A stretch of 64,000 bases of DNA. Origin: Polychytrium aggregatum. Taxonomy: Eukaryota > Chytridiomycota > Chytridiomycetes > Polychytriales. Both the position numbers and the translations under genes were made by a program. The notes below the pieces were generated by a model. That model did no database searches. It saw only the letters and a program-made list of their open reading frames with translations, and had not been told where the DNA came from. The stretch covers positions 682,001 to 746,000 of the forward strand of contig NW_026516205.1 of NCBI RefSeq assembly GCF_025602895.1, read 5' to 3'. Position 1 is the stretch's first letter; each line of letters starts with the position of its first letter. This document shows, piece after piece, positions 13,107 to 57,300 of this stretch.

Positions 13107-13673
13107 TCAACGGAAAGGGGACGCAGGCGGCAAGATGCAGGGTGCCCTACCTGGGCTGGGCCCGGACCGAGGTTGGGCTGGACGGGGTGCCGGAGCTGGC
13201 CGTCTCGACTTTAGGATGGCATCGATCTCAAAGTCGCTTTCCCAGCGCTCGAGCATGCGGGCGATCGCCTCGACCGAGACACCGTGCGAGTTCTTGCGGG
13301 CCATCTGGTCCACGTCCCGACGAAGCCACCACTCTGTCTGAGGCTCCTTGATCTCGACGGCGTAGTTGAACTGCAGGGCCAGCTGCACATAGGGGCGGGC
13401 CTCCCACTTTTGCGTGTGGGTGTTGTCGATGATGACCAGCGGTACTTGGCGCTGGAGAGCATCCAGAGCCCTGCTCTGGTTCCACTGGTGCGCCTGGCCG
13501 AGCAGCGACGGGTCGAAGTCATACTCGTGGGTATGCGGATCGACGAAATAGTCGTCGGTCGAGAGCACGACACTGCGAGGATGGTTGGCGGCGATGGCCT
13601 GGGCCAGCGTCGACTTGCCCGAGCCGGGGCAGCCGCGCATAACGACCAGGACGTTGCTGGGGCTTTCGGACAT
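13107..13673 (-). CDS. N4BP2L1-like P-loop kinase domain protein
   Basis: This intronless frame of 188 residues starts MSESPSNVLVVMRGCPGSGK at 13673. It has a Walker A motif GCPGSGKST, then VVLSTDDYFVDPHTHEYDFD, a HQWNQSRALDALQ helix, the Walker B-like VPLVIIDNTHTQKWEARPYV, and EPQTEWWLRRDVDQMARKNS with the HGV motif (HGVSVEAIARMLERWE) that typifies the NEDD4-binding-protein-2-like family. These are relatives of the polynucleotide kinase domain. Activity on nucleic-acid 5' ends or small molecules is inferred only. The reading frame stays open far upstream through the 8-bp satellite, but the family begins at this Met, so I start there. The C-terminal 25 residues are Pro/Arg-rich and variable. 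It lies head to head with a TDP2-like phosphodiesterase. Confidence 0.85.
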   Translation of the reverse strand: MSESPSNVLVVMRGCPGSGKSTLAQAIAANHPRSVVLSTDDYFVDPHTHEYDFDPSLLGQAHQWNQSRALDALQRQVPLVIIDNTHTQKWEARPYVQLALQFNYAVEIKEPQTEWWLRRDVDQMARKNSHGVSVEAIARMLERWESDFEIDAILKSRRPAPAPRPAQPRSGPSPGRAPCILPPASPFR

Positions 13674-14315
13674 CCGGCACAAGAGGGCGAGCAGCAGAGG
13701 AAAGGGCAGAGCGGTCGGGAGGGGAGCAGATGGGCGATGGACGAAGAAGATATTGCCGAGGCACAAAAAAAGCGGCCGGTGGCGCTGCCGGCTGGGCCGC
13801 CTCTGCCACCGGCCGATGGAAGATGATGATCGGCGAGATACGAGACGTGAACGGTGATATGATGATCTGATGATATGATGACATGATGATATAGTGATAT
13901 AGTGATATAGTGATATAGTGATATAGTGATATAGTGATATAGTGATATAGTGATATAGTGATATAGTGATATAGTGATATAGTGATATAGTGATATCATA
14001 GTAGATTGATCTATACAACCAGGGTGTTCTTTGGTCCAGCGACAATGTAACCCATTGCTTTTCAACAGTCCTTGCTCTTTCCACCGCCAAGGCCTTTGCA
14101 TATCGTCCCCAGACGAACGTTGCATTCTTGACCCTGTTCAGGAGAAAGCCGACCACTTCCCATTCAGTTTTTGACAGCGTCGTCTGGACGGCCGCCTGGG
14201 ACCAGGGAACTTGGCACCCTGGCTCGAATACTGCTGTCCTGACGACTTCGCCACCGCTCCCACTCTGTTCCAACTCTCTCCTCATCATACCATCCACTCT
14301 CGCACGGCCGTCGTG
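13674..14315. promoter_or_regulatory. Shared upstream region of two divergent genes
   Basis: This 640-base interval separates the start of the minus-strand P-loop kinase (13673) from the start of the plus-strand phosphodiesterase (14316), so it must carry both promoters. It contains a long 8-bp satellite (listed separately). No TATA box stands out in a usual position for either gene. The long minus-strand frame across it only translates the satellite. Confidence 0.5.
13887..13997. repeat. 8-bp satellite, unit GATATAGT, about 14 copies
   Basis: A near-perfect tandem array of GATATAGT occupies about 110 bases, flanked on the left by related degenerate GATGATAT/GACATGAT words that look like decayed copies. 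Its base composition (about 70% AT) contrasts with the GC-rich surroundings. It lies between the two divergent promoters. Confidence 0.9.
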
Positions 14316-15221
14316 ATGAGGGTCGATCTCCTCCAGTATATCCCGCCTGTCGGCAGCAGCGCTTTGGCCGAGGGCCTGTGGGTCCCGGTGATCAAGGCCG
14401 ACTCGCCTCCGCCCGTCTCTGCCGGCCCAACATCCCTCCGGATTGCCTCGCTCAATGTCTGGTTCGACCGGTACCAGTGCGAGACCCGATGGAACAGGAG
14501 CCTCGAGACGCTCGCCGCACTCGAGCCCGATGTCATTTGTCTGCAAGAATGCACCCTGGAGCTGACCGAGCTGTGTGTCAAGTCGTCCCAGGCTATCCAG
14601 GACCACTACTTGATCACCGACTTGACTACCTTTGACGGCTGCTGGTACGGGCTTATGGTCCTCGTGCGCAAGAAAAGCACCGTTGCGGTCCGCTCGGCCG
14701 AGTCTCTCAAGTTCCATGCTGGGCGCCTGTCTCGGGGACTCTTGATAGGGCATCTTGAGGTTGGTGGGATGGCAGTGTCGATAGCCACTAGCCATCTCGA
14801 GTCCTATCCGCAAGATTTGCCCTTCCGCCTCCAGCAGCTCGAGCAGGCCACCCAGGCCCTAGCAGACTCTTCGTCTGCACTCACCATCCTGTGCGGTGAC
14901 TTCAACATCCCAAAGGCCACCAACGAAGAGGAGTCGCTCTTCATCCACCGCCTGGGCTGGACCGACGCATACACCAGCTTTCACCAACTGAGTCTCTCGG
15001 ACGACGGCGGTCTGACCTTTGGGGACTGGACGCCCAAGAGCTGCTCGCAGTGGCCCGGCGCAAGACTCGACCGGGTCGTCTACCGGACCGGCGATGGTGT
15101 CGGTGCTGCCGTGAAGTCCTATGCGCTGTTCGGCAGCGAGCCCATTCAGGGCGATGGCGAGGCCTTCTTTGCCTCAGACCATCTCGGTATCGTTGTCGAT
15201 ATGGAGTGTAGGTCCGAGTGA
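14316..15221 (+). CDS. Endonuclease/exonuclease/phosphatase family protein, TDP2-like
   Basis: This is a single exon of 301 residues starting MRVDLLQYIPPVG. The metal-dependent phosphodiesterase motifs occur in the expected order: SLNVWFD (Asn), ICLQECT (metal-binding Glu), a TSHLESYP motif, LCGDFNI (Asp/Asn), ARLDRVVYR, and ASDHLGIVVDME with the catalytic SDH. The TSHLES and LDR motifs match tyrosyl-DNA phosphodiesterase 2 relatives, which remove topoisomerase II peptides from DNA 5' ends, better than sphingomyelinases or APE1. No UBA or targeting domain is present, so other substrates are possible. The first Met of the frame that precedes a plausible leader is at 14316; upstream in-frame sequence belongs to the shared promoter. 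It is transcribed divergently from the P-loop kinase gene. Confidence 0.85.
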   Translation: MRVDLLQYIPPVGSSALAEGLWVPVIKADSPPPVSAGPTSLRIASLNVWFDRYQCETRWNRSLETLAALEPDVICLQECTLELTELCVKSSQAIQDHYLITDLTTFDGCWYGLMVLVRKKSTVAVRSAESLKFHAGRLSRGLLIGHLEVGGMAVSIATSHLESYPQDLPFRLQQLEQATQALADSSSALTILCGDFNIPKATNEEESLFIHRLGWTDAYTSFHQLSLSDDGGLTFGDWTPKSCSQWPGARLDRVVYRTGDGVGAAVKSYALFGSEPIQGDGEAFFASDHLGIVVDMECRSE

Positions 15222-28900: not shown

Positions 28901-31044
28901 GGTTGTAGCTGCGCGGTCCTCGACCTGGTCGCGCGATGAAATGGCGGAATCGCTTTCAGCAGAGTCGAGGAGTTTTTCGATCGTGCTCATGGCATCGACG
29001 AGCTGCTGCCTGAGCTTCTGCTGCTCCAGGGTCAGAGTTTGCTGCGACGTTTCGTACTCGCGGATCCCGGCGCGGGCGTAGGCCAGGGCGGCGTTCAGGT
29101 TGTCGATAACGAGCAAGCTGGCCTCGCCCCGGTACAGGCCCTGAGGTGCGGAGCCGGCTGAATCGCCACCAGAGACAAACGGCGAAGAGCGGCCCTGCAT
29201 CAACTCAAACCGAGAGGACGCAGACCGCAGCGGCGAGAGGATCTGGCCGTCCTTGAGAGCCTGGTCCTCGTACTTTTGCAGCTGGTCGATGCGCCGCCGC
29301 AGGAGGCCAATGGTGTTGGCGGCACGCGTCGTCTCGACAGACAATTGGTTCTTGAGATGGATTTGGATCTTGATCAAGGCATCTTCTTTGGCCTTTTGCT
29401 CCTCCAGCTGGATGTTGAGCTGGGCATTGAGCTTATCCAGCTGGCTGACCTGCGTCGTTCGCTTGGCGCGATCCTTCTCGAGTTCCTTGATCTGCTCTTC
29501 GGCCTGCTGCTTCTGCATCTCCAGATTGTAAAAGTTTTCGTCGGAGCGTCCTGAAAGACGGAGCAAAGAAGGCAAGAGATGGTCGGGGATGTGAGGAGTT
29601 GGTCGGGATGATGGAGGGTGCGCCGGAGTACGACGACTACGGTGCGTTGGGCGAGCTGAAATAACAGAGCCGTATCCATATGATAGGACATGGACAACCC
29701 AGTGATTACGAATACATACTCAGAGCCTCACGGTCCCGCATGCACTGCTCCTCAAGACTGGCGAGATCCATCTGGAGCAGCTCGATCTTGTCCATCGACT
29801 CATCCAGCAGCTGGCGGGCCTCAATATATTGCTGCTTGAAGGAGCGTGCGCACTCGAGCAGATTGAGATCGAGGGTGCTCAGCTTGTCGGTCGACTCGAG
29901 CTCCAGCCAAAGGTCTTTCTGGATACGGTTGCGACGCGGGGTGATCAGGACCTGAGGGCTGCCGGTGCCGAGCCCCTGGCTGGTGCTGAGGGCGGTTTGC
30001 TCGTCGACGGGTGACTCGGGAGGCGAGTCGGCGGCGATTCGAGGAGGCTCGTTGGCGGCCTTGGCCAGGCTCGAGCGCATGGCTTTGAAGCCGCTCTCGA
30101 GATACTTTGCGTTGTCTTCGGAGCTATCGTCCGAGTCATCCGAGTCGAGCGAGTTGAAGAGGGGCTTGGCGACATAGGGCTCCTCAAAGCGGCTGCCGGT
30201 GGGAGAGGCCGACCGGAGCTGGTAGCTTGCGTTGCTTCGCCTCTTGATCTCGGGGCTGTTGGCCTGGGAGAGCTTGCCGACGAGATCCTTGACGGAGGTG
30301 GTGATTGTGTGGATGTCGGTGCGGATGGCCTTGAGCTCGTTCTTCTTTGGAGAGCTCTCCATGTTTCGGCTGGCGGCGCTTTGCAGACTCTCGAGATGCT
30401 GGATCCGGGCGGCCATCTACAGAAACCAACGAGACAACGGCAAGTGTTGGTTGGAATGAGTGGAGCGGCAGCGATGGAACGATGGTGCAGAGGCAATGAA
30501 TGGAAGAATGGTGGCGGAAGCAAGGCTGGGCGAGAAAAGCCAACGAGGGAAAGGCCATAGCAAAACGCCGATGCAAAAAGACAGGAAATACAGAGTGGCT
30601 ACAGATGCCGCTGCTGCACGGGCAGCCGAATCCAGCCGGCGAACCGACAGCAGCATCGAGTCCAGCAGCAACCAAGCGGAGGGCAAAGGATCTCTGGCCG
30701 AAACACGCCAATGGAGTCGACAAGCTCACCTGCTCGATCTGGTTCAAGAGGTTCTGACCAGCGGTGGCCGCCAGAATGCACTCTTGCTCCTTCTGCTGGA
30801 GATCCTGGTGCAGGGCAGCATTCTCTCGCTTGAGCAGCGATAGAGGCGAGTCGCTCACAATGTCGATATACGCGTTGGCGGGGTGTCCACTGTTTGGGAC
30901 AAACGAGTGCGTTCCGTTGTAGCTGTAGCTTCGATGCATTCGGGTATTGGTGTCTCGGATGTGCCGAAGCGACATGGGCTCAGGCAGGCGGGAGGGGCGA
31001 GAGCCAACGGGATCGGAGACCCCAAGGTTGTTTTGGGGACTCAT
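25954..31044 (-). CDS. Num1/Mcp5/ApsA-like cortical anchor: coiled coils plus C-terminal PH domain
   Basis: Num1/Mcp5 proteins sit at the cell cortex, where a C-terminal PH domain binds phosphoinositides and coiled coils capture dynein and mitochondria for nuclear and mitochondrial positioning. Five minus-strand exons (31044-30730, 30416-29720, 29550-27320, 27176-27047, 26873-25954) join in phase to about 1430 residues starting MSPQNNLGVSDPVGSRPSR. N-terminal coiled coil: LSLLKRENAALHQDLQQKEQ, then MAARIQHLESLQ and SFKQQYIEARQLLDESMDK, then MQKQQAEEQIKELEKDRAKR. A long acidic disordered middle follows. The PH domain spans exons 3-5: FQKYNRHGKNPKLRYFWVNP, FSRTLNWAVK, IVSVSTPSDIHLTLDG, INHAIRIETPYRDILLVPTN and YQQWVQGLRFLVENR, matching the Mcp5/Num1 PH subtype. 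The tail after it is Ser-rich. The repeat array of yeast Num1 is absent. Confidence 0.82.
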
Positions 31045-31978: not shown

Positions 31979-34900
31979 CTACTCCCTCAGTCGCGCCACC
32001 CAAATGTCTCGTCGCTCCGGGCTCGGCGCGCTGAAGCACATGGTCTCGCCCTTCCTGAGGGCAACCTCGATGAAGAACAGGTTTCGGGCGTCTGGGCAGG
32101 CCAGATCCGGCCAGGCCGAACAGTGCCCAGCGCCGTCCAGCCATCCGTCCGGCCGGTGCAAAGTTCAGGTCCGGTTAGTCCGGTGGCGGCAATGGAGGAG
32201 TCGGGTCAGCCGCTGCCGCTGATCCATATGCATCCATGACTGCATCCCACTGGTTCCCACTGGTTCCCACCGGCTCCCACCCGTTCCCACGCAACCCCTC
32301 ATCCGCCGTATCGCCGTCGGCTGCTTGGGGTCCTGCCATCGACAGCCGTGAAACTGCAAAGTCGTCGGCCTCCGTCGCCACCCAGCCTCGATCTGCCGTT
32401 CGTCCGCACCCCGTCTGCACCCCTCTGTCCGTACCTTCGCGGTCTTCCAGCACGCCGCATTCCAAAAAGTCGCGCAGGTACATCTCGCGGTACTGGAGCA
32501 GCTTGGTCGCCTTGCTCGGTCGCCCGGCTCGTGCAAACAGCGGGCTCCATTCCTCGTCCTTCTCGTAGTCCACCAGCGGCACGACCCGTTTCTGCGGCTT
32601 GACCACCACGATGCAGTCGTTCAGCAAGTACAGATACACCGGCTTGCGTCGCTTGATCGCCCCCCGCAAGACGCACTTTGAAGGATCCTGGGCGTCTGCG
32701 CCAACGCCTCCGGACGAGGAGATCTTGAGCTTCTCGACGGGGTCCATCAGCACCAGCAGTTGCTTGGAGCGGAGAGCGACCTGTCCATGGCCATCGGCGG
32801 CAACGTTTGTCAGACCGGGCATGAACGTCGACACTTCTGCGGTCGACGTCGAGCACTCAACACACGGCAGTCCACCTCCGTGTGCCTCCGTTGCTTTCAC
32901 GCGTCGGAGATGTGGGATCGACATGGATCTGTTGGCAATGTCGTCCAGTCCAACTCACCGAGGGCGGCAGATCGGCAATCTGAAGCATCATGCCAAACAG
33001 ATTCCGCGTGCTCTTCATGCACACGCTCAAGTCGTTCTCCAGATTTGTGACCGCAAAGGCGGCATATTCGGTGTGCTGATTTGGCAACGCTTCCGCGAGC
33101 TCTGGGCAACCGAAGCCGCCGCCATCAGCAACTCAACACCACCGCCATCAGCAACCCAACACCACCGCCATCAGCAACCCAACACCACCGCCATCAGCAA
33201 TACATCAAAGGAAGCAGCACCGATGCATCGCAAACCAAAGCTGTGCCTCCACATCGATGCAGTACCGGCGTACCTTGCAGCATGTCCCTGTACTCGCCGC
33301 TGCGCCGGATGGGAAGCGTGAGCATCTCCAGGATGGATTTGTCTCCCAGAACCGAGGCGATATAGTCGCGAAACTTTGGGTTGTCGACCAGGCATCTGTG
33401 GGTCTCCCAGAGGCTTGCTGTCAGGTGGAACGAGTAGTTCATGTACAGCGACTGTACAATCATGCTCTGCCATCCAAGCAATTGAAAGTGGCAGTTGAGC
33501 CATTCGAGACACGACCGTACGACCAGTCGAGTTGCCATTTGCTATGCACTCGTGCCCTCACCTTGCTCCACACAAACGCCGATATAGAGCTCTCGAAGGT
33601 GTGGTCGGTGCAAGAGCTCATGCACAGCTTGAGCGACTGCAAAAACTCCAGATGAAATGTGTGGATGGAGCTGATCGGCGAGAAGATTGATTTGACTTGG
33701 TCTTCTTTGAGAATGGCATGTCGCGTCTGGCCGCTTTCCATGAGTGGCCGCAGTGCCCCCTGTGCAAGCCCGGGGTTGTAGTTATGATGACAGTATCAAC
33801 CGGCTGCGGAGACGATGGGATCGACAGGAATTGCGGTTTCCAGCCCAGATCACACTGCAGCACTTCAAAGAGTCGAAAGATTCCCTCTGCCCAGGTCTAC
33901 TCTGCCAAGCACTCGCCTCCATCAGAAACTTGAGGTTGGATATGTATCCGAACTCTGATGAAAACAGCTTGTCCAAGATCTTGAGTGCGCGCTGGTGTTT
34001 GGCTCGCGCAGGCATGTTGATGTGGCCGAGCAGGGACGTAAACGCATCCGAGAGCTTCTCGGCCACAACCTCGGGCTGAACCACTGCAACTCCCTTGCCC
34101 AACATGCTCTGGATCTTGGACTTGGCGACGTAGATTTGAGGGGTCCGGTCACCTGAATGAAGCGAGCATGATTGTGGCCAGTCCGTATGGCTCCTTCAGC
34201 CATCTGTGTAAATCACTTGATTGCATAGCAGCCACGGGTGAACACGACGCTTGGGAAGGACCCTCCCGAACGCACATTCTCATGGACGATTCTCCTGATG
34301 TGCCGACATGGGCTGGCCATGAGTCCGGCAAACTGCACATCGGGTCCACAGACCTCCATCATCCTGCTGATTCTTCGAAAGAGACACAGATACCGAGTGC
34401 GGCTGCTGCTCTGGCGCTCCAGTGCTCGTGTGTGTGTTGATGTGCAAAGTGCGGTTGGTGACCAAGGGACGCACTCCAGAGCCCATGACTGGGACGGCCT
34501 TGACGGGAACACAGCTCTGGATGACCCGGGGCTTTTTGATCGTGATCCTTGGGTTGATGTTGACCAGATCCGAGCGAATCGTGGCCTTGGCGATGTCGGG
34601 GATATCGGGTTCCGAGGTCGTCGGGGTGGCGGCTGCCTCGATGACGACAGTCGCCTTGTTGTAATTTGCCCACCAGTCACCTGGGTCCACCTCACTACCG
34701 TATCGGCGTGTGTGAGACGAGAATACAAAATTCGAGCGACGGTGTTTAGTAGCCTGCAGCAGCCATTGAGCCTTGGCGGTGGCGCAGAGTAGTTGCTCTG
34801 GGACATTGTCGGCGCTGGCTGTAAAGCCATCCAAAACGACAGCACCAGCATGGCTCGTGCCAACGAGGTTTGTCGCGAGCCCTTCACCTCTTTTTGCTGC

Positions 34901-37804
34901 TTCTCTTGTCGTTGAGATTCAGCCGGAAGGTCTCAAGCGAGACCTTGATAATAGACTTGTCCTTCTTGCACTTGGAAATGAAGTCGTGCTTCAGAAGATC
35001 CATGGCAGTCGGTCGCTAGAGAAAAGATCCCGATACCACGCAGATACTGTTGTCAATCGGCCACTTGATCATGAAGAGTGGTTTGCCCAAGCGCATCGGC
35101 AGCCAGATTCACGGAGCATCGGCTCTGATCTAGATCGCGATGGCCCGTTTTTGTCGAACCAGCGCCGGATTATACCTCGGAGGGGTTCTTTTTCAGACAC
35201 ACTCGAACAAAATCGTGGTACTCTGGCGACCACTCCGACCCCTCGAGCTGCGGTGGCGGCGAAGTTGGGATTTGGTACAGGACCTAAATTTGGGGAGAGC
35301 GCTTCATCTCAGACATGGGATCATCCACTGACTTTGGCTTCAGTCCGTTCCTCGCCACCAATCGATGCTTGCAACGATGGGCTGGTGAGGCCGTGCAGAC
35401 ATTACCTCCATAGGATGTCGGTTGCTCTTTGGTGGCGCCCCCATCGCCAACTCGATAGCCATGATGCCAAGACTCCAGATATCGACCTGAGCAGTTTCGG
35501 ATCACATTCGATCGGACAGGTTTACTTCAGCTTGCTGTCGGATTGCCTCGCAGCATACACTCTCGCAGAAGGCAGGGGCGACAGTGCATCACTCCAATCC
35601 ATCGTCATTCATAGATGTCATGCCAAACCACTGCCGCCGCCGCCGCCGATACTTACTGGACAGCCATAGGGCTGGTTCTGGACGATTTCAGGAGCCATAT
35701 AGAGCTGTCGCAGTCAAGGATAGCCGGCCAGCCAGCTCAGTCTCTGTTTCTGCTGATTCGGCGCCACATACTTGATCACAGACCGACTCGTTCTGCGCAC
35801 ACTCCCCTCCCCGGAGCAACGACAGCGGCTCGGTATGCATTACCGGTGTCCCGACGAATGTGGTCCGCGAGGCCCGGTCGCTGGTGAGTTGGGCGGCAAC
35901 GCCAAAGTCGGCGAGCTGGGGGGGGGGAGGAAAGAGGATGGTGCAGTCGGTTGATTTTGCTGTGTTATCCCCAGGATACAATACCACACCGTCGCTCCAC
36001 TCCGATGGACAGCGGTTCTCAACAAACCTTGAGCGAGCCCGTGTTGTCGAACAAAACATTGGCCGCTGCAATCATGAGGAATGCACATCATCAGATACCG
36101 CCCCGTGCACGCCAGACCGTTGTGGAGCAGCGTGGATGAGTCGGTCACGAACTCGAGACTCAAACCTTTGATGTCCCGATGGATCTTTTTGTTGCTGTGC
36201 ATGTACTCGAGCCCGCGCAGCGATTCCCGGAGTATGAATCCGCACTGATCTTCCGTAAGCTTGCAGTTCTTGATCTGACAAAGATGGAGAGCCATCAGCT
36301 TCGATGCCGAAATTGGGTAGTGTGTCGGAAAGCTCTTTCTCCCTCCCACATAGAGCCCTATCTCAATTGGATTTGCGTTGCTCCTCTCTTCTTCCTTGCC
36401 ACTCCGCGGATGGTCCCCCCCCCAGTAAAAGCCGATGGTCAGACACTTGCCAGCTCCTCTGCTGTTCCTCCTCCAAGGTACTCCTAGACAACGGGTGGTA
36501 TTAGCCAGCAACGGTACAATGAACGGGGCTAAGCTTCCAATCGCAGTATCTGTCTCTCACAACCCGCACTTGGCTTGCCCTCCATCACAAACCATTGCTA
36601 TAGCCAGTTTGTTATTCCACATCCATGATCCTGGAATGGGGAGGAATCCATGCAACTGAGTAGCACGAACATCCTTTCAATAGCCAGACCATCAAAAAAG
36701 GGGGGCACCAACACCGAATCTCTCACTCGTGCTACAGCGAACTGATCTCCTCTGCTGTCCATACCAAAGTACTGTGCCAGATGCGGTGACTGACACTTGG
36801 CTTGGAAATCAACCTCGGCCAGCAAATCTTCAAGGTCGTCCGTGGTTTTCTCGAGGTCGATGATCTTGAGGGCGACGATTTGCGGACCACTTTTGCTCAT
36901 GCTGGAAAAGTGCATCGGTCCGTGGTCGGTGTGTATTCCGCATAGACGCCATGGGAATCGCCACGAGAGCAACAGCAGGAAGCATGGCGAGTGGTCAGCG
37001 ACAGAAAGTAACCAGATGGGGCAACGGGGATCTGGGCATGGCGGAGGAATATGCTTGCATGGGGTAATACAACGACAAGCTCCAGTTGTGATGGTTCTGT
37101 AGGCATTCCGGTGGAGGTATCGACCAGCAAACGCTCGCTGGTCAATACGAGTCGTCTGTGGTCTGCTCTCTCACCGCCTTTGACACCGAGCGCTTTGGCC
37201 CTGGTGCATCACCGTCCAATTCGAAGACTCACGCTCTGTATATCTCTCCATAGGATCCTTCGCCGACCTTCTCGATCAGCGTCCACAGCAAGAGATAGTC
37301 CGAGAACTCGGGTTTGATGACCACGGCCGATTTCTTGGTGCGCATGGTCAAGCGGCTGTTGGTGATGCTCGACGGCGTCTTGGCCGAGCCCTGAGAGGCA
37401 CTCAGAGGCGTGATGCTTTCGGCCATCTCTTCGTCAATGATGCTATCCTCGTCGTCGCTCATGTTGGTGGAGGCTGGCGAGAGCTGCCGCTTGGGGATCT
37501 GAGACTCGGTGGAGGGCGAGTCCTTCGCCGGGTCTGCTCGAGCAAGCGACGCAACTGTGATCTTGGGCAGGGTCGGCAGCCTTGGGAGGGGGGCAAAGTT
37601 CACACAGCCGAGTGAGCCAAATGACAGCACCGACAAGCGATACAGTCCAACTTGGCTCGTTGCAGGCACTGGCTCGGACTCTCTGTCTATTTGGCTCGTC
37701 TCGGCACCGTCCGCTGCTCTGAACTACCCTTTGTCGATGGGACTCTTGTCCACGGCCATTTTCTCGAATGCATCGCGGACGTTGCTGAACTTGGACGGCT
37801 CCAT
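31979..37804 (-). CDS. Ste20/GCK-type protein kinase fused to RhoGEF (DH-PH) module
   Basis: About twenty minus-strand exons encode roughly 1020 residues starting MEPSKFSNVRDAFEKMAVDK at 37804. Checked exons: 37804-37728, 37580-37233, 36901-36765, 36630-36593, 36483-36451, 36298-36166, 36065-36028, 35915-35844, 35704-35657, 35486-35406, 35283-35176, 35015-34888, 34814-34354, 34152-33917, 33759-33562, 33466-33274, 33101-32959, two or more PH exons, and 32091-31979. Kinase (about 120-400): VGEGSYGEIYRA loop, VALKII with Lys near 154, EYLGGGTAEEL, KIHRDIKAANVLF, LADFGVAAQL, FVGTPLYMAPEIV, VDIWSLGIMAIELA, RPTAMDLLKHDF. Linker about 415-567. DH (about 575-825): RALKILDKLFSSEFGYISNL, EDQVKSIFSPISSIHTFHLE, ILEMLTLPIRRSGEYRDMLQ. 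PH: RRKPVYLYLLNDCIVVV, RNLFFIEVAL, SPERRDIWVARLRE. Ste20-group kinases act downstream of Rho/Rac/Cdc42, so GEF and kinase in one chain suggests local activation and readout. The exon upstream of PH is uncertain. Confidence 0.85.
33116..33206. repeat. 21-bp tandem repeat inside an intron of the kinase-RhoGEF gene
   Basis: Four copies of a 21-base unit, CACCGCCATCAGCAACCCAAC with small variants, lie in the intron between the DH exons ending at 33274 and beginning at 33101. It makes up about half of that intron. Confidence 0.85.
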
Positions 37805-38223: not shown

Positions 38224-39460
38224 CTACTGCTTTGTCACCTCTTTCATCTCCCTGCTACTTTGCTCGGCCGGCGATCCAGACAGATCTTCGTTCTCACGGA
38301 GCTGGCTTTCAATCGAGTCGTACGCAACGTCGAGTCTCGCCTGATACTCTTCGGTGAGATCCCGTCGGAACTGGAACCTGGGCGCTGACCCGAGGCTTCC
38401 TCTGTGAGAGATCTGAATCGCCACCAGTTGCCGGAGGTGTGGTGTAATTTCATCCAGCACAATTTCCAGATTGGCCTGTGGGACGGCTCGTCAGCTTTCT
38501 GGTGCAAGCAAAGAGCATATCCGACCCAAATCATGCAGAATCCAGGCAACCGACAGGCAGTCGTGCGTGAGGCAGCTCGCCTACCAGCTCCAGCGGCTCC
38601 GTCTTGGGGTCCATCGGCTTCCACCAGATCACGCACACCTTGTCGGTCGTCGACAACGTCATCTGCAATGATAGCACGCCCGTTCATAGTGACGACAGTG
38701 AGCCGACTGTCAAAGGCGAACAAACTGTCCATCGCCCGGCGGCACATTGTGCTCCAACGAGGCATTTGATTCGGCACTTGGCCGGTCGTCTGTCTCGTAC
38801 AGAATCGCCAATGCCAAGGGTGTTGATGGCAAATACCCGGGCGTCAACGACACTTACCTTGGAGACGTACCACTCCTGCGAGCGCATCTCGACTCCCAGC
38901 TTCGACTCCCGGACCATCTCGACGACCTCGCGCAGTTGTGCCAGCCGCTTGCCCTGCCGTTTGGCAACTGCCCGCGGCAAGGATTGGGGATCGCCGGCCT
39001 TGGTCGGCACCGGTCGCATGGCCTTGGCGACGCTGATGGTCTGGTTCGGGGCGTTAGTTGTTCGCTCGATGGTGACGTCCAGCTTGCGGTTGTCAAAGAG
39101 ATGGCGATCGGGGCCACGAACGTAGTGGGTATCGAGAATGTTGCGGGAGTCTATGTCTGCGGTTTCGTCTTCAGCGGGCTTGTACAGCGGCAGAGAATTC
39201 GACTGATCCTGGCTCTGGCTCTGGCTCTGGTTCTGACTCTGGCTCGAGCGACCCACATCTGCTCGGCCGCCGTTCTTGAGATTGGCCGAGAAATCTAGCA
39301 GCAAGTCTCGGCCACTGCGCTGCAAGACATGCGAGAGAACCGAGAAGGCTGATCGCTGGACGAGGCGCGGGACGGCAGCGCAGAATGCCGTTGGTATGGC
39401 TGGGACCGACCCGGCGCGCTTGCGGACGATGCTTGCGAATGATCTGCAGGACAGTGACAT
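38224..39460 (-). CDS. Mitochondrial ribosome-binding factor A (RbfA family)
   Basis: RbfA has a KH-like fold and assists maturation of the small ribosomal subunit rRNA. Three minus-strand exons (39460-38858, 38662-38585, 38475-38224) join in phase to 310 residues. The first 40 residues, MSLSCRSFASIVRKRAGS onward, are rich in Arg/Ser/Ala without acids, as in a mitochondrial presequence. The RbfA core spans LAQLREVVEMVRESKLGVEM, EWYVSKMTLSTTDKVCVIWW (the strand-helix junction crosses an intron), and LDEITPHLRQLVAIQISHRG followed by SAPRFQFRRD, the conserved end of the domain. A Gln/Ser-rich (SQ)n stretch sits between the presequence and core. The frame continues upstream into an Ala-Leu repeat encoded by a hexanucleotide microsatellite; I reject that extension and start at 39460. 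MND1 is divergent from it. Confidence 0.82.
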
Positions 39461-42030: not shown

Positions 42031-45000
42031 TTACAACGAAGGTCGAGCGGTGCCTGCGGCTTTGTCACTGACAACCTGATGCCATCCCAGTAGCACTTTC
42101 CGTTGGATACATTTCTCTGACCAGGATATAACAAAGATCTAGAGAGAATTCAAGTGGAGTTACATATCGCAAAACCAAGCAGATTGACCAGCAACCATTC
42201 AAAGATACTTCGCGTGTGACCTTACCAGCTTCCGCTGCGTCTCAAAGATATGCTGCTTGGTCTTTGTCTTCCACGGCTCCCATATCTTGTGCCGCATTTT
42301 TCGCAGTCTGAATGCATTGCACAGATCGTCCAGTCGCAGGTAATCGACAACGCTCATGCGAGCTTGGATGTCCTGGATTGAGACCAGATTCTGGGAGCGA
42401 GCAACTGCGACAGTATCGTCGGGGATCACAAAGCATTCGCGTGCCCCTTCCGTTTGGTGAAGCGCTGCTCTCGCAGTCGATGGGCGGGGTGGGAGAGCAC
42501 TTGACCGGCGATGCTGAGCTCTCTTGACGGCAAGCCAGTGCCAATACTCAAATGACAGCTGCAGCATCCGGTGTTGCCGGTAGCGTTGGGCGTCCACATT
42601 CGTCGCTGCAGTTTGAGCCCAGAAACCGTATTTACGATTAGAGTTCATGCTCGAGTGCATTCCCGCTAAACACCCGCAATGCTTGCAACCCGATCGCTTG
42701 ACTACACACCTTGATGGATGTGAAGATGCCACACCCATCGCCGGAAGCTCCTTTGCAGCGCAATTCGCTTTGCAAGACCGCCGATGCTGGCCCAATCTCG
42801 CCATACTGTAAAAACCTGGATTCGCAAGGAAAGATCACATCAGTCGGGCTGGACCTCAATCATTTGAGAAAGACTGAATAGATATGCTCACAGTCTCGCA
42901 ATGTGGCATGGCTCTGTCTCGATGAATCCGGCGGCGCTGCTCTACTTTACCTTTCTCTTGAGCCTGGCAAGCTGCCGTCGCTCGTTTCGCTGGGCAGTAC
43001 GCTGTCTCCACAGATCGAATGCTGCGGCGACCACGGCTTTCCGATGTTTGGCTTGCAGAGTGTTGACAGACTCCTCATGCTCTCGCTGTTTACGGTGCGA
43101 ATACGAGGATTAGTCTTTGCATAGAGCTTTGAGCAGATTCTAAACACGATAACAGGCTTTGGTGCACTGCGTACCTTTGCAAGCCTCTGGAAAAGCTTCC
43201 ACTGATTCCACGCAAAGTGCAATCGCCTCTGAGAACTATGAGAGTCTGCAATCCTCATTCCCATGCTGCGTCGCCATGTTGAGAAGAAGCGTCGCTGGAG
43301 AGACTGCTCGATATACACTGCCTGACGGTCTTGCTGTTCCTACTCTCGCAGGACAGATTTTTAGCGATCGCCCAAGCGATAGCTTTCGCTCGCGACGCCT
43401 AACGTCGCTCAGCAGCAATGCATTACCACCGCCAAGGAACAATGAGTGCCAGACCTGCCGCTCACCTTCGCGGCATCGACGGCGAGTCGCCACCGAGCAA
43501 AGTGCCTACTTAGCACCGATATTCGTGTTTTTCGGGCAATCTTGGCACGATAGTGCTCTTTCCAAACCCAGAGAGAGATGGAGAGCTTTCGATTGGCCTG
43601 GGTCTGGGTGAAGAGAATGACCTTTTGCGACTCGCATATCTGAGGGATAGATCGATTGTGCACGTCAGACACTGAGCCATCTACTCATGCCAAAAGTAGA
43701 CATAGGCGGGTCTAACTCACGCTGGATTGTGTTGTTACGATTTGCCAGTGCATCAAAGCCCTCCGGAGAAGATGGTCCTTATGTAGTTTCTTGACTTTTG
43801 TTTGAATCGTGAGCTTCCGCCTCCAGAGATTGAACGCCGCCCTGCAGTTTATCATGTCCCGGAGCACTTCGTTTGTCATTTCGCGGGCATCTGCGGGCCG
43901 GCCACCCTGCCGATGAGCGATGTTGACCAACAGCTGTCTTTCATGCGAGCGCAGACGATGGCGATGTTTCACTTTGGATTGCCAGGCTTCAAATCGAGAG
44001 GCGCAGCAGCAACCATCGTTGTGCATCCCAGAATATCGTCGAGGCAGCCTCATTAGCATCGAGTCATGTCCCGGAAGCACTATGGGCACAAAAGATTGCT
44101 GGGAGGTGCAGCGGGCCCTGCATATTCACACCCTACCATGGAATGCTGCTTTGATGGCTTTGCTGTGCCTTCGTGCTGTCAGAATATCGGCCTTGCTCTC
44201 TATCGCTCGTATACCTTGCCGGCAGTGGAAGCCGCTCCTCCATGTGACCCACGCCTGGGCGAGGAAATGGCGCATGTACATCTGATTCGAGAGTCTCTCA
44301 TTGAGAATGCTTGCCAGTCTGCTATACCATGCATTCCACGATTCGATAACCAGGTTTCTATGATATGTCGCTGCGGCGTGCTGTTCAAGCTGGAGCTGAT
44401 AAAGTCTTGTCCGCCAAACAGTCACAGTCCACTTGATCGCCTGTTGTTCGTGCCATTCGTCAGCAGCATCTTCCATCTTCCGGAAAGTTTGGTGTTGCTG
44501 ACGCAGGCTCAGCCATTTTCTGAACCAGGTGCGGGCAATGTGCACCAGAAACCTTTTGGCGGCACAGGATACCACGCGCTTGCGTAATTCGGTTTGGTGT
44601 CGCAGCAACTGCAGGAATCGGTGAGAAAGGCGGCTCACCGAGTGTTGGCAAGCGAGATCCCATTGGCGGTCTTCACGTCTTTGCTGCATCGCCAAATCAC
44701 GGCGAGCTTTCCAAAGCCTCCAGAATCTGGTTATTAGATCCGAGGCATATCGACGGTAGCTGACGTCCATGGACAGGGCGACACGGGTATCCCTGTCCTT
44801 CCAGACCCCAAAGCACCTCGCTGTGATGCGACGTTCGCGGAGCTGCGCGGCAACTTCCTCGTTCGCGAAAGCGACTTGGCTTTGGTTATGCCAGGCGGCG
44901 AGCGACCGCTTCAGCAAGCGGCTGTCCCATTTTTGGTACATCTTCGAGGCTGCCTTCTCCATTCTTTCCTTCCTTGTGAGTGCGATCTTCCATTTGCGCA

Positions 45001-54339: not shown

Positions 54340-57300
54340 ATGGACGGCGCAACATCGATCCTCCGATTGTCGGAATACCCCCGGTCGCTGGTGCTCTCGC
54401 CAGTGTCGTCCGGACGCTGCCCGGCTCTCGTTCTCGACAAGACCACGGAAGATGCCGTCAACCCCAAGGTGTGCTCGGCATTTGAGCGGAGCGACACTCT
54501 CGACCTGTCGCTCTTCAGCCGGTCGTCCGTGGCTCCGAAGCGAGTCTGGGGCTGCATCGGCACAATCGAGGTCTCGAGCGGTAAGGATTTCGTTGGCTAT
54601 GCTCGGGCGCCCTTCTTCTGACAGTAGCCTGAGAGGCCCGCTAGTCTCCATCGGCCCTGCCCCCTCCTTTCCACCATCCAAAGCTCAAGGGGGTTTCTGC
54701 TTTCGCCATGCGTCGTCGCCCTGGGTTCGATAAGCATTCGCCTCCTGAGACATTCTTGCTTCGAACTCCCTGAATCTGATGGCTGCAGCGCTCCTGTTAC
54801 GGGCTTCATCGACAGGGTCTATATCGGTTGCTGACCGCCTGACCTCGCTATGCTTGTCCCCTCGCCACCCATCCTCCCCGTCCGGCCGTTAGACTCGACC
54901 AAGGACCTGTTCCTCGGAGTCATCACGGATGCCGTCGTCGCTGGCCGTCTCGAAAACTCGACCGTCTTCCGCATCACCGAGGTCTCGTTCTACTCGGCGC
55001 TGACGTCTCGATACGACCGCATGAACGAAATCCTCGATAACAACAACCCCGACGAGTCCAAGCCACAACACCCTTGCTCCACCTTGATCAAGCTGCTTTC
55101 CGACGGCAGCTTTTACTTTTGCAGAAACTACGATATGACTCGCTCCTATCAGCGACAGAACCGCGATGCCGACAGCAGCATCTTCACCTCGCCGGACCCC
55201 CACTATGTCTGGAACAAGTCGATGCTGCAGAACATCCTCAAGATGCGCGACGAGCTCCATCTTTCCGAGCGTGCGGCTCTCGACAGCAGTGGCCTGATCA
55301 CCCTGGTGACCCGCGGGTACTTTGGTGATATTGACTACCGCTCGTATGGCAGTGGGCAGTTGCGCATGGCAATCTGCAGCCGTCTGAGCTGCGAGAATGC
55401 GGGGACCCGATTCAATGCTCGCGGTATCAATGACGACGGCCATGCCTCCAACTTTGTCGAGGTATTTGGCAGCAGCACCACGATCGCTGCAGGCCCAGAA
55501 CTCCAAGCACTCCAACCGCTGGGTTGTGCCCTAATAGCCGTCTCACCTGCCGCCACCTCCGCCCCACCCAGACCGAATTCATCGTCTATATCGGAACAAC
55601 CTGCTTTTCGTTCGTGCAGCTCAGAGGCAGTGGTGCGTAATGACAGGAAGGATTGCTCGATGGTTTGCCCGAGGATTCGCTGCTGCACCGTGCCCCTGAT
55701 GGGAAGACTGCGTATGACACCCGATGCAACCTCGATATGGTGTCTGATAGCCTGCTTTCCGAAATCCGTTCTTGATACCCATGTCGATGCTCAACAGTGC
55801 CCGGTAAGAAGCAGCGCTCATCTCTTTCAGAGGCGATATACATGCCGTAGCATATACTAAATGCGACTGCGCTTCTTCTGGCAGTGTTCTGGGAGCAAAC
55901 CGGTATTCAGGTATGGCTGCCGGCGCATTGTCCTATCGGCGTGTTTGGCGGGGCCTCGGTGGCGAGTGCTGCTTGTTGGGTATATGATGGCCAAGTACCG
56001 CATGATTGTTGCTCTATGGATATTATTCGGGTCAGCCTCTCACCCTCCATTACTCCGTGCGCACTTGGGGCACTGTGGCAGATGACTCACAACCCCGTTT
56101 TGAGCCGAAGCACCGAGGCAACAGCCCCTGCATTCCGGAAGCACTTTCAGGTACCCGACCGACTATTGGCAGCGCAGCAACCCGATAGAGGAGCCCATGA
56201 GGATCAGTGACTTGCTGTCTCGATTTCTATGAGGATCAGTGACTTGCTGTCTCGATTTCTATGAGGATCAGTGACTTGCTGTCTCGATTTCTATGAGGAT
56301 CAGTGGCTTGCTGTCTCGATTTCTATGAGGATCAGTGGCTTGCTGTCTCGATTCACCGGCTGACCTGGATTGTTGTCTTGCCCCTCCGCGCATGTAGGAG
56401 TTGACACGCACCTACGGCGATGTCCACATCTGCAATCTCCTGAGCAACAAGGAGGGCTCTCCCGAGACAGGGCTCGGGGAGGAGTACCGAAAGCAATACG
56501 TTCTCTGTCAGCGAGAAAACAGCAGTCTTAGTTACCTGGCCTTTGACTTTCACAGCGAGTCCAAGCGACCCACGGGCACCTTCCAGCAAAACGTAAGCCC
56601 TTCCACGCGACCTGAATGCACGAGACCACATCCTATCCAAGACATCAGTCGATGCTGAAACTGCAGCACTTATATCTCTGTTTAGGTCTATGCCATCGTA
56701 CAGCGACTGCGAGACAAGCTTGAGCACGACCAATACTATCTGATGAACGAAGGCGAGGTGATCACCATGCAAAGTGGAGCCATGCGAGTCAACTGTTTGG
56801 ACTGCCTTGACCGCACCAACTTTGTCCAGACGTACGTCATTGCGGCACTGTCTCTGATTGCATGCCCGCAGTTACAGCGGATCGCTAGACGGAGATCATT
56901 CATCGCGCTGTGCTGCTTTCAGGATGCTGGCACGTGAGGTGCTTGAGGCGCACTTGCGGCAGCTGAACATGGCTCCTATGGTATCGGATCAAGACTTTCA
57001 GAGTCGGTTCAATCAGATCTGGGCCGATGTAAGAGACGCAAGCCGACCTGAGGATGTCGCTACCAACACAGGCCGAATGGTCATCGTGCGCCTGCAGCGG
57101 AGCATTACATAAATTGCTCACTTCCCCCTCCGACAGAACGGCGACGAACTCAGTCGCATCTACGCTGGCACTGGAGCCCTCAAGTCGTCCTTTACTCGAG
57201 CCGGCAAACAGACCGTGGGAGGTACGATGATATCATTCTGGCAGCGATCGTGCAGGATGGGGCTCTATCAACGCTACTTGACTCACCCGCACTCACCTTT

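Follow-up and report, generated by a model that had tools for sequence, protein, structure and literature searches.

A probable single-gene fusion of a GCK-type kinase with a divergent RhoGEF module in the chytrid Polychytrium aggregatum

Protein kinases and the modules that activate Rho GTPases are usually carried on separate proteins. In a window of 64,000 nt from Polychytrium aggregatum (contig NW_026516205.1), sequence encoding a Ste20-group kinase is followed on the minus strand by a linker, a RhoGEF (DH) domain and a probable PH domain. The locus therefore raises the question of whether one gene encodes all of these parts and, if so, what the two halves of such a protein would do for each other. 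The initial annotation had read it as a single gene whose product both activates a Rho GTPase and, through the kinase, responds to it.

An independent rebuild of the gene (minus strand, 37804–31979) from the ATG at 37804 to a stop codon ending at 31979 gave 19 exons (Table 1). The spliced chain has 993 residues and no internal stop, which bears out the frame that had been followed through the splices. Introns are between 73 and 343 nt long, and 16 of the 18 are GT-AG; the other two, at 36450–36275 and 33916–33760, begin with GC and end with AG. Pfam profiles run on the spliced chain recovered Pkinase, RhoGEF and a sub-threshold PH match in the order originally claimed (kinase at residues 126–376, linker, RhoGEF/DH at 621–783, probable PH at 885–992). 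Both these matches and the alignment of the kinase to its PDB relatives extend over exon junctions. A codon-usage score with 14 long ORFs of the window as its training set (four with a Pfam match, the remainder unverified) ranked the chosen frame first of six in 15 of the 19 exons, the misses being exons 4, 5, 10 and 19. At the join between kinase and linker, the acceptor before 34814 restores the frame, with phase 2 on both sides; the acceptor before 34818 was rejected since it gives an out-of-frame linker. The least certain of all joins is that from DH to PH (32959/32855, intron 17), where the acceptor is poor. A scan for promoters and terminators used bacterial patterns and was not taken as evidence in this fungus; it gave no promoter and, against 0.7 expected, two terminator-like sites, of which one lies in intron 12 on the gene's strand.

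Three further features of the window were recorded. A minus-strand ORF at 44129–45502 matches the Sfi1 spindle-body family (E = 6.8e-7), a 32-bp repeat occupies 56197–56353 (4.9 copies at 99%), and a perfect TGATATAG tandem array at 13887–13996 lies inside the span of an AAA_33 ORF (13110–14858).

Table 1. Exons, junction introns and a repeat of the rebuilt gene, in order of transcription. Positions are those of the window; ranks are those of the chosen frame among six by codon score.
Feature	Position	Strand	Content
Exon 1	37728..37804	-	Start codon and N-terminal tail, aa 1-26; codon-score rank 1/6
Exon 2	37233..37580	-	N-terminal tail and P-loop GEGSYGE (aa 132-138)
Exon 3	36765..36901	-	Catalytic Lys154, αC Glu171
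Exon 4	36593..36630	-	Kinase N-lobe; inside kinase alignment; codon-score rank 2/6
Exon 5	36451..36483	-	Hinge EYLGGG; inside kinase alignment; rank 5/6; followed by GC-AG intron
Exon 6	36166..36274	-	HRDIK
Exon 7	36028..36065	-	AAN of KxxN
Exon 8	35844..35915	-	DFG-V and activation-loop Thr279
Exon 9	35657..35704	-	APE motif
Exon 10	35406..35486	-	DIWSLG; codon-score rank 3/6
Exon 11	35176..35283	-	C-lobe
Exon 12	34888..35015	-	End of kinase domain; unspliced reading meets TGA right past the donor
Intron 12	34815..34887	-	Kinase/linker junction, 73 nt, phase 2 on both sides
Exon 13	34354..34814	-	Linker, ~154 aa; codon score +30.9, rank 1/6; first Met of frame at 34486
Intron 13	34153..34353	-	Linker/DH junction (disputed), 201 nt, phase 1 on both sides
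Exon 14	33917..34152	-	DH start, CR1 SSEFGY (Glu626); followed by GC-AG intron
Exon 15	33562..33759	-	DH
Exon 16	33274..33466	-	DH CR3 LPIRRSGEY (aa 755-763), diverged
23-bp tandem repeat	33119..33200	-	3.6 copies at 98%, within intron 16
Exon 17	32959..33101	-	DH end; canonical Asn absent from aligned place, Asn802 a few residues later
Exon 18	32435..32855	-	Bulk of probable PH (sub-threshold); acceptor uncertain; codon score +26.1, rank 1/6
Exon 19	31979..32091	-	C-terminal PH helix and stop; rank 3/6; Pfam PH alignment ends at aa 992

The Pkinase match is strong (E = 8e-67). A phmmer search ranked STK25/STK24 as the best PDB matches (299.4 bits), followed by MST1/2 (275.4 bits), and 134 of the 267 query positions in the alignment to STK25 are identical. 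All catalytic residues are present (K154, E171, HRD 243–245 and DFG 263–265), as is the activation-loop T279. Residues in KxxN, after DFG and between β3 and αC are reported to distinguish MST4 and its homologues from PAK4 (PMC6445471). Those found here are of the MST type: KAAN, a Val after DFG, and an acidic β3–αC stretch, EKTTDDLED, with five acidic residues. By profile and alignment the kinase is a member of the GCK family of the Ste20 group, resembling STK25/STK24, and it is very probably catalytically active. Its preference for GCK-III over GCK-II amounts to only 24 bits, compared with 83 bits (300.5 versus 217.2) for a standalone kinase encoded on contig C1 of the same genome. The stretch LTELI after the kinase domain, which we took as a GCK-III trait from two sequences only, STK25 and the C1 kinase (STSCLTELI), is not kept: KKTSFLTELI of STK25 aligns to KKDKSIIKVSL. 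Two matches to an MST-like phospho-site, T104 and T497, are at chance level for this chain (two or more were reached in 0.15 of 2000 shuffles).

A PAK-type effector was considered and rejected. Pfam found no PBD/CRIB in the chain at E values up to 1, the kinase is N-terminal, ahead of the non-catalytic region (126–376 of 993), and it has KAAN instead of the Ser-Asp of PAKs. The initial annotation had reasoned that Ste20 kinases are effectors of the Rho GTPases that such exchange factors activate. That premise fits PAKs; because the kinase here is a GCK with no detected PBD/CRIB, it does not apply directly. An indirect link of GCK-III kinases to active RHO, via FAM65A and CCM3, has been described (PMC5201024).

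The other half of the chain is less conventional. The RhoGEF profile scores 61.8 bits against a cut-off of 27.6 (E = 1.2e-16), and the best solved relatives of the DH are P-Rex1 (E = 2.8e-6) and collybistin (E = 2.6e-5). The PH profile stays under its cut-off (16.7 versus 25.1 bits, E = 0.011), and a structure prediction of exon 18 alone, which covers most of the PH, was unusable (pLDDT 35); both results weaken the suggestion that a PH domain defines the membrane site at which the protein acts. No FYVE domain was found in the chain by Pfam at E values up to 1. Bacterial and archaeal contigs gave 26 pattern matches to the linker-DH-PH part, none of which was confirmed as a relative.

The Lys/Arg of CR3 is counted among the conserved GTPase-contact residues of DH domains. 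We compared the DH with four others from the genome, one each from loci L001, L003, L006 and L007, out of 44 RhoGEF matches. The CR1 Glu is retained, as in all three compared domains that span this position. CR3 reads LPIRRSGEY, and the QRxx[KR]Y common to all four is altered by changes of Gln to Arg and of Lys/Arg to Glu. The Asn of the NE motif, likewise common to all four, is missing at the aligned place, although Asn802 follows a few residues on. Three of the four compared contact positions are thus changed in a loose alignment of four DH domains only, so that the loss of these residues predicts, and does not prove, a loss of exchange. In Tiam1, E1047 and N1232 are reported to touch Rac1 (PMC7884829). 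With both the Gln and the Lys/Arg of CR3 changed, and the late Asn as well, canonical exchange activity of the DH-PH half appears doubtful even if kinase and DH form one chain. At L001, the DH is followed by further coding in a single 758-residue frame which by eye has the appearance of a DH-BAR (Tuba-like) protein.

We suggest, with moderate confidence in the reading as a whole, that the locus encodes a GCK kinase, a linker, a divergent DH and a probable PH, and that the kinase would be the working output of the chain. The DH-PH half would then mainly dock the kinase onto a Rho-family GTPase at a membrane and would also be a kinase substrate, its own exchange activity being weak or lost. Such a protein would hard-wire in cis a partnership of GCK kinase and RhoGEF that recurs in trans.

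The main rival to this reading is that proposed at the outset, a bifunctional switch in which one gene supplies both a kinase and a DH-PH that is a functional, though divergent, exchange factor. It draws on a RhoGEF match far above cut-off, on the retained CR1 Glu and on the closeness of Asn802 to the expected Asn; in addition, the LP that stands in place of KP in CR3 is also seen in two of the four compared domains (L006 and L007). However, a chain doing both presumes a working exchange factor, and the two substitutions in CR3, the Asn displaced from its aligned place and the weak PH all argue against one, which makes the switch unlikely in our view. A DH that has lost its exchange chemistry could also act as a GTPase sensor, which would bind a GTPase of the Rho family for no other end than recruiting the fused GCK kinase or letting it go. 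We rate this as rather unlikely; if true, an activator module would have become, in a zoosporic fungus, a receptor that reads GTPase state.

The reading as docking module and substrate, like the switch, takes kinase and DH to be parts of one gene, and this turns on intron 13. The initial annotation had relied on matching splice phases here (phase 1 at 34354 and at 34152). The phases are correct, but phase matching alone is weak evidence: when the open linker frame is joined to the open DH frame, 41 of the 108 possible GT-AG combinations agree in phase. Codon usage is more informative. In the linker frame, the 109 codons ahead of the first Met (34486) score +26.9 bits. In the DH frame, the 16 codons from the acceptor to the first Met (34105) score +5.1, a level attained by none of 1389 stop-free, overlapping intron windows of 15 codons (one codon shorter than the DH stretch). 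Since coding signal precedes the first Met of each frame, linker and DH alike appear to depend on a coding exon further upstream. We consider it likely that kinase, linker, DH and probable PH form, in this order, a single chain.

The alternative is a pair of adjacent genes, one for kinase and linker ending at 34280 and one for DH-PH starting in or after 34353–34153. Indeed, the linker frame reads on for 24 codons into intron 13 to a natural stop at 34280, the DH frame has its Met at 34105, and six of the eight ATGs inside the 201-nt interval could be spliced to that frame, so that the DH may begin with a short 5' exon of its own. A kinase followed by a linker would also be in keeping with GCKs, in which the kinase is described as followed by a C-terminal region without catalytic function (PMC4587736). 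Yet the 24 codons leading to the stop score −3.1, compared with +5.1 for the 16 DH codons before the Met, and the spacer of 201 nt is the size of an intron for this gene. A start at 34105 would, moreover, leave ∼ 174 nt between the genes, as against ∼ 420 nt upstream, to an apparent ORF with its stop at 38224, and ∼ 935 nt downstream, to an apparent start near 31044; these spacings were taken by eye to ORFs that are unverified as genes and of which neither has a Pfam match. Taken together, these points make two genes quite improbable.

The assembly searched (64.7 Mb in 418 contigs) holds the fusion gene once, and no second haplotype of it was found there, whereas many other matched loci are present in two copies on separate contigs, as would be seen if a diploid assembly had been left unmerged. 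Counted exon by exon, matches in the assembly numbered 26 for chitin synthase, 11 for Fungal_trans and 14 for the flagellar protein IFT46, which together mark it as the genome of a zoosporic, flagellated fungus or of something very close to one. The single occurrence, the poor acceptor of intron 17 and the four exons in which the chosen frame is not the best could point to an artefact of assembly or prediction, be it an aberrant splice model or a gene in decay, but 993 open codons over 19 exons, the chosen frame ranking best in the other 15 and domain matches that cross exon junctions make this highly improbable.

The kinase on contig C1 is a separate, canonical GCK-III with an LTELI-type tail, and a close copy lies on contig C45; in the ∼ 6 kb that follow the C1 gene, no DH was recognized by eye in the forward-strand frames. 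At C13:480011–482081, a partial DH match (31 bits) is followed 1.8 kb on, on the same strand, by a FYVE match, and the locus is a possible Don1/FGD-like exchange factor. As the standalone GCK-III and the C13 DH/FYVE locus exist separately, the fusion would be an extra gene, which suggests that it adds to the usual pair of GCK and RhoGEF and does not replace it. A test for other kinase-DH neighbours set 44 RhoGEF matches against overlapping sets of kinase matches (at least 137; 37 of 49 places, the window's own 12 being omitted). Among the matches listed the closest pair was 18.2 kb apart, in a test that misses genes split into exons, the fusion gene itself among them.

Kinase-RhoGEF chains as such are already known, from Dictyostelium (PMC1420674) and from animal obscurin (PMC10118190). 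In the open-access literature, no fungal kinase-RhoGEF protein was recognized among the matches listed. As far as titles and the opening lines of abstracts convey, those matches are in line with the view that such chains are no standard architecture among fungi. RhoGEF is named among the promiscuous domains in a survey of fungal domain architectures, the partner given in the available part of that survey being PH (PMC4102429). Fungal GCK kinases and Cdc42 exchange factors are described as separate partners, and their connection in Ustilago as 'not completely resolved' (PMC6386918). A natural fusion of GCK and RhoGEF would be direct evidence of a gain, in some lineage, from wiring both together, and it would offer one chain on which regulation from kinase to GEF can be assayed.

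With the GCK-III kinases (STK24/MST3, STK25, MST4 and the fungal SmKIN3 and SmKIN24) the predicted protein shares an N-terminal kinase with a C-terminal extension (PMC4587736), as well as its best PDB matches, the MST-type specificity residues and the activation-loop Thr. It differs from them in that the extension is a DH-PH, and the LTELI stretch of STK25 and the C1 kinase is not kept. Functional contacts between such kinases and exchange factors are on record: overexpression of MST3 is reported to raise the phosphorylation of VAV2, whose SH3 domain is bound by MST3, and STK25 forms complexes with α- and β-PIX (PMC10193606). In Ustilago maydis, the same steps of septation require both a GCK kinase, Don3, and a RhoGEF, Don1 (PMC3098242, PMC6386918), the two being described as belonging to one Cdc42 module (PMC3098242). 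In contrast to the fusion, Don1 and Don3 are two separate proteins, and Don1 has a FYVE domain. A literal Don3-Don1 fusion was rejected, as the chain is without FYVE and the standalone GCK-III (C1, C45) and C13 DH/FYVE loci are separate. Activation of Cdc42 by Don1 in Ustilago is also said not to depend on Don3 (PMC6386918), which weakens the analogy of a GCK-RhoGEF partnership.

Dictyostelium provides examples of a protein kinase and a RhoGEF in one chain, namely a LISK and an STE-group kinase termed unique (PMC1420674). By description, the former is of the TKL group and the latter a 'unique' STE kinase, neither being a GCK-III. The precedent named in the initial annotation is borne out in so far as two kinases with RhoGEF domains are reported. 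The names attached to it, kxcA and kxcB, are found among the small-GTPase genes tabulated in PMC7888446 and are not tied to these two proteins in the available parts of either source. A published parallel to the divergent DH comes from animals.

Obscurin, Trio and Kalirin each join a RhoGEF module to one or more kinases in one chain, and their kinases are of non-Ste20 groups and lie C-terminal to the DH-PH. The DH of obscurin is a substrate of MST2 and a proposed pseudo-GEF: the human domain differs at conserved contact residues, is reported to show no in vitro exchange on the GTPases tested, and is a target of MST2 phosphorylation that does not activate it, the zebrafish DH-PH being described in the same source as not phosphorylated by MST2 (PMC10118190). 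The lack of activation in obscurin and the zebrafish result count against the reading suggested here. The altered DH of the predicted Polychytrium protein may be a second pseudo-GEF beside that of obscurin.
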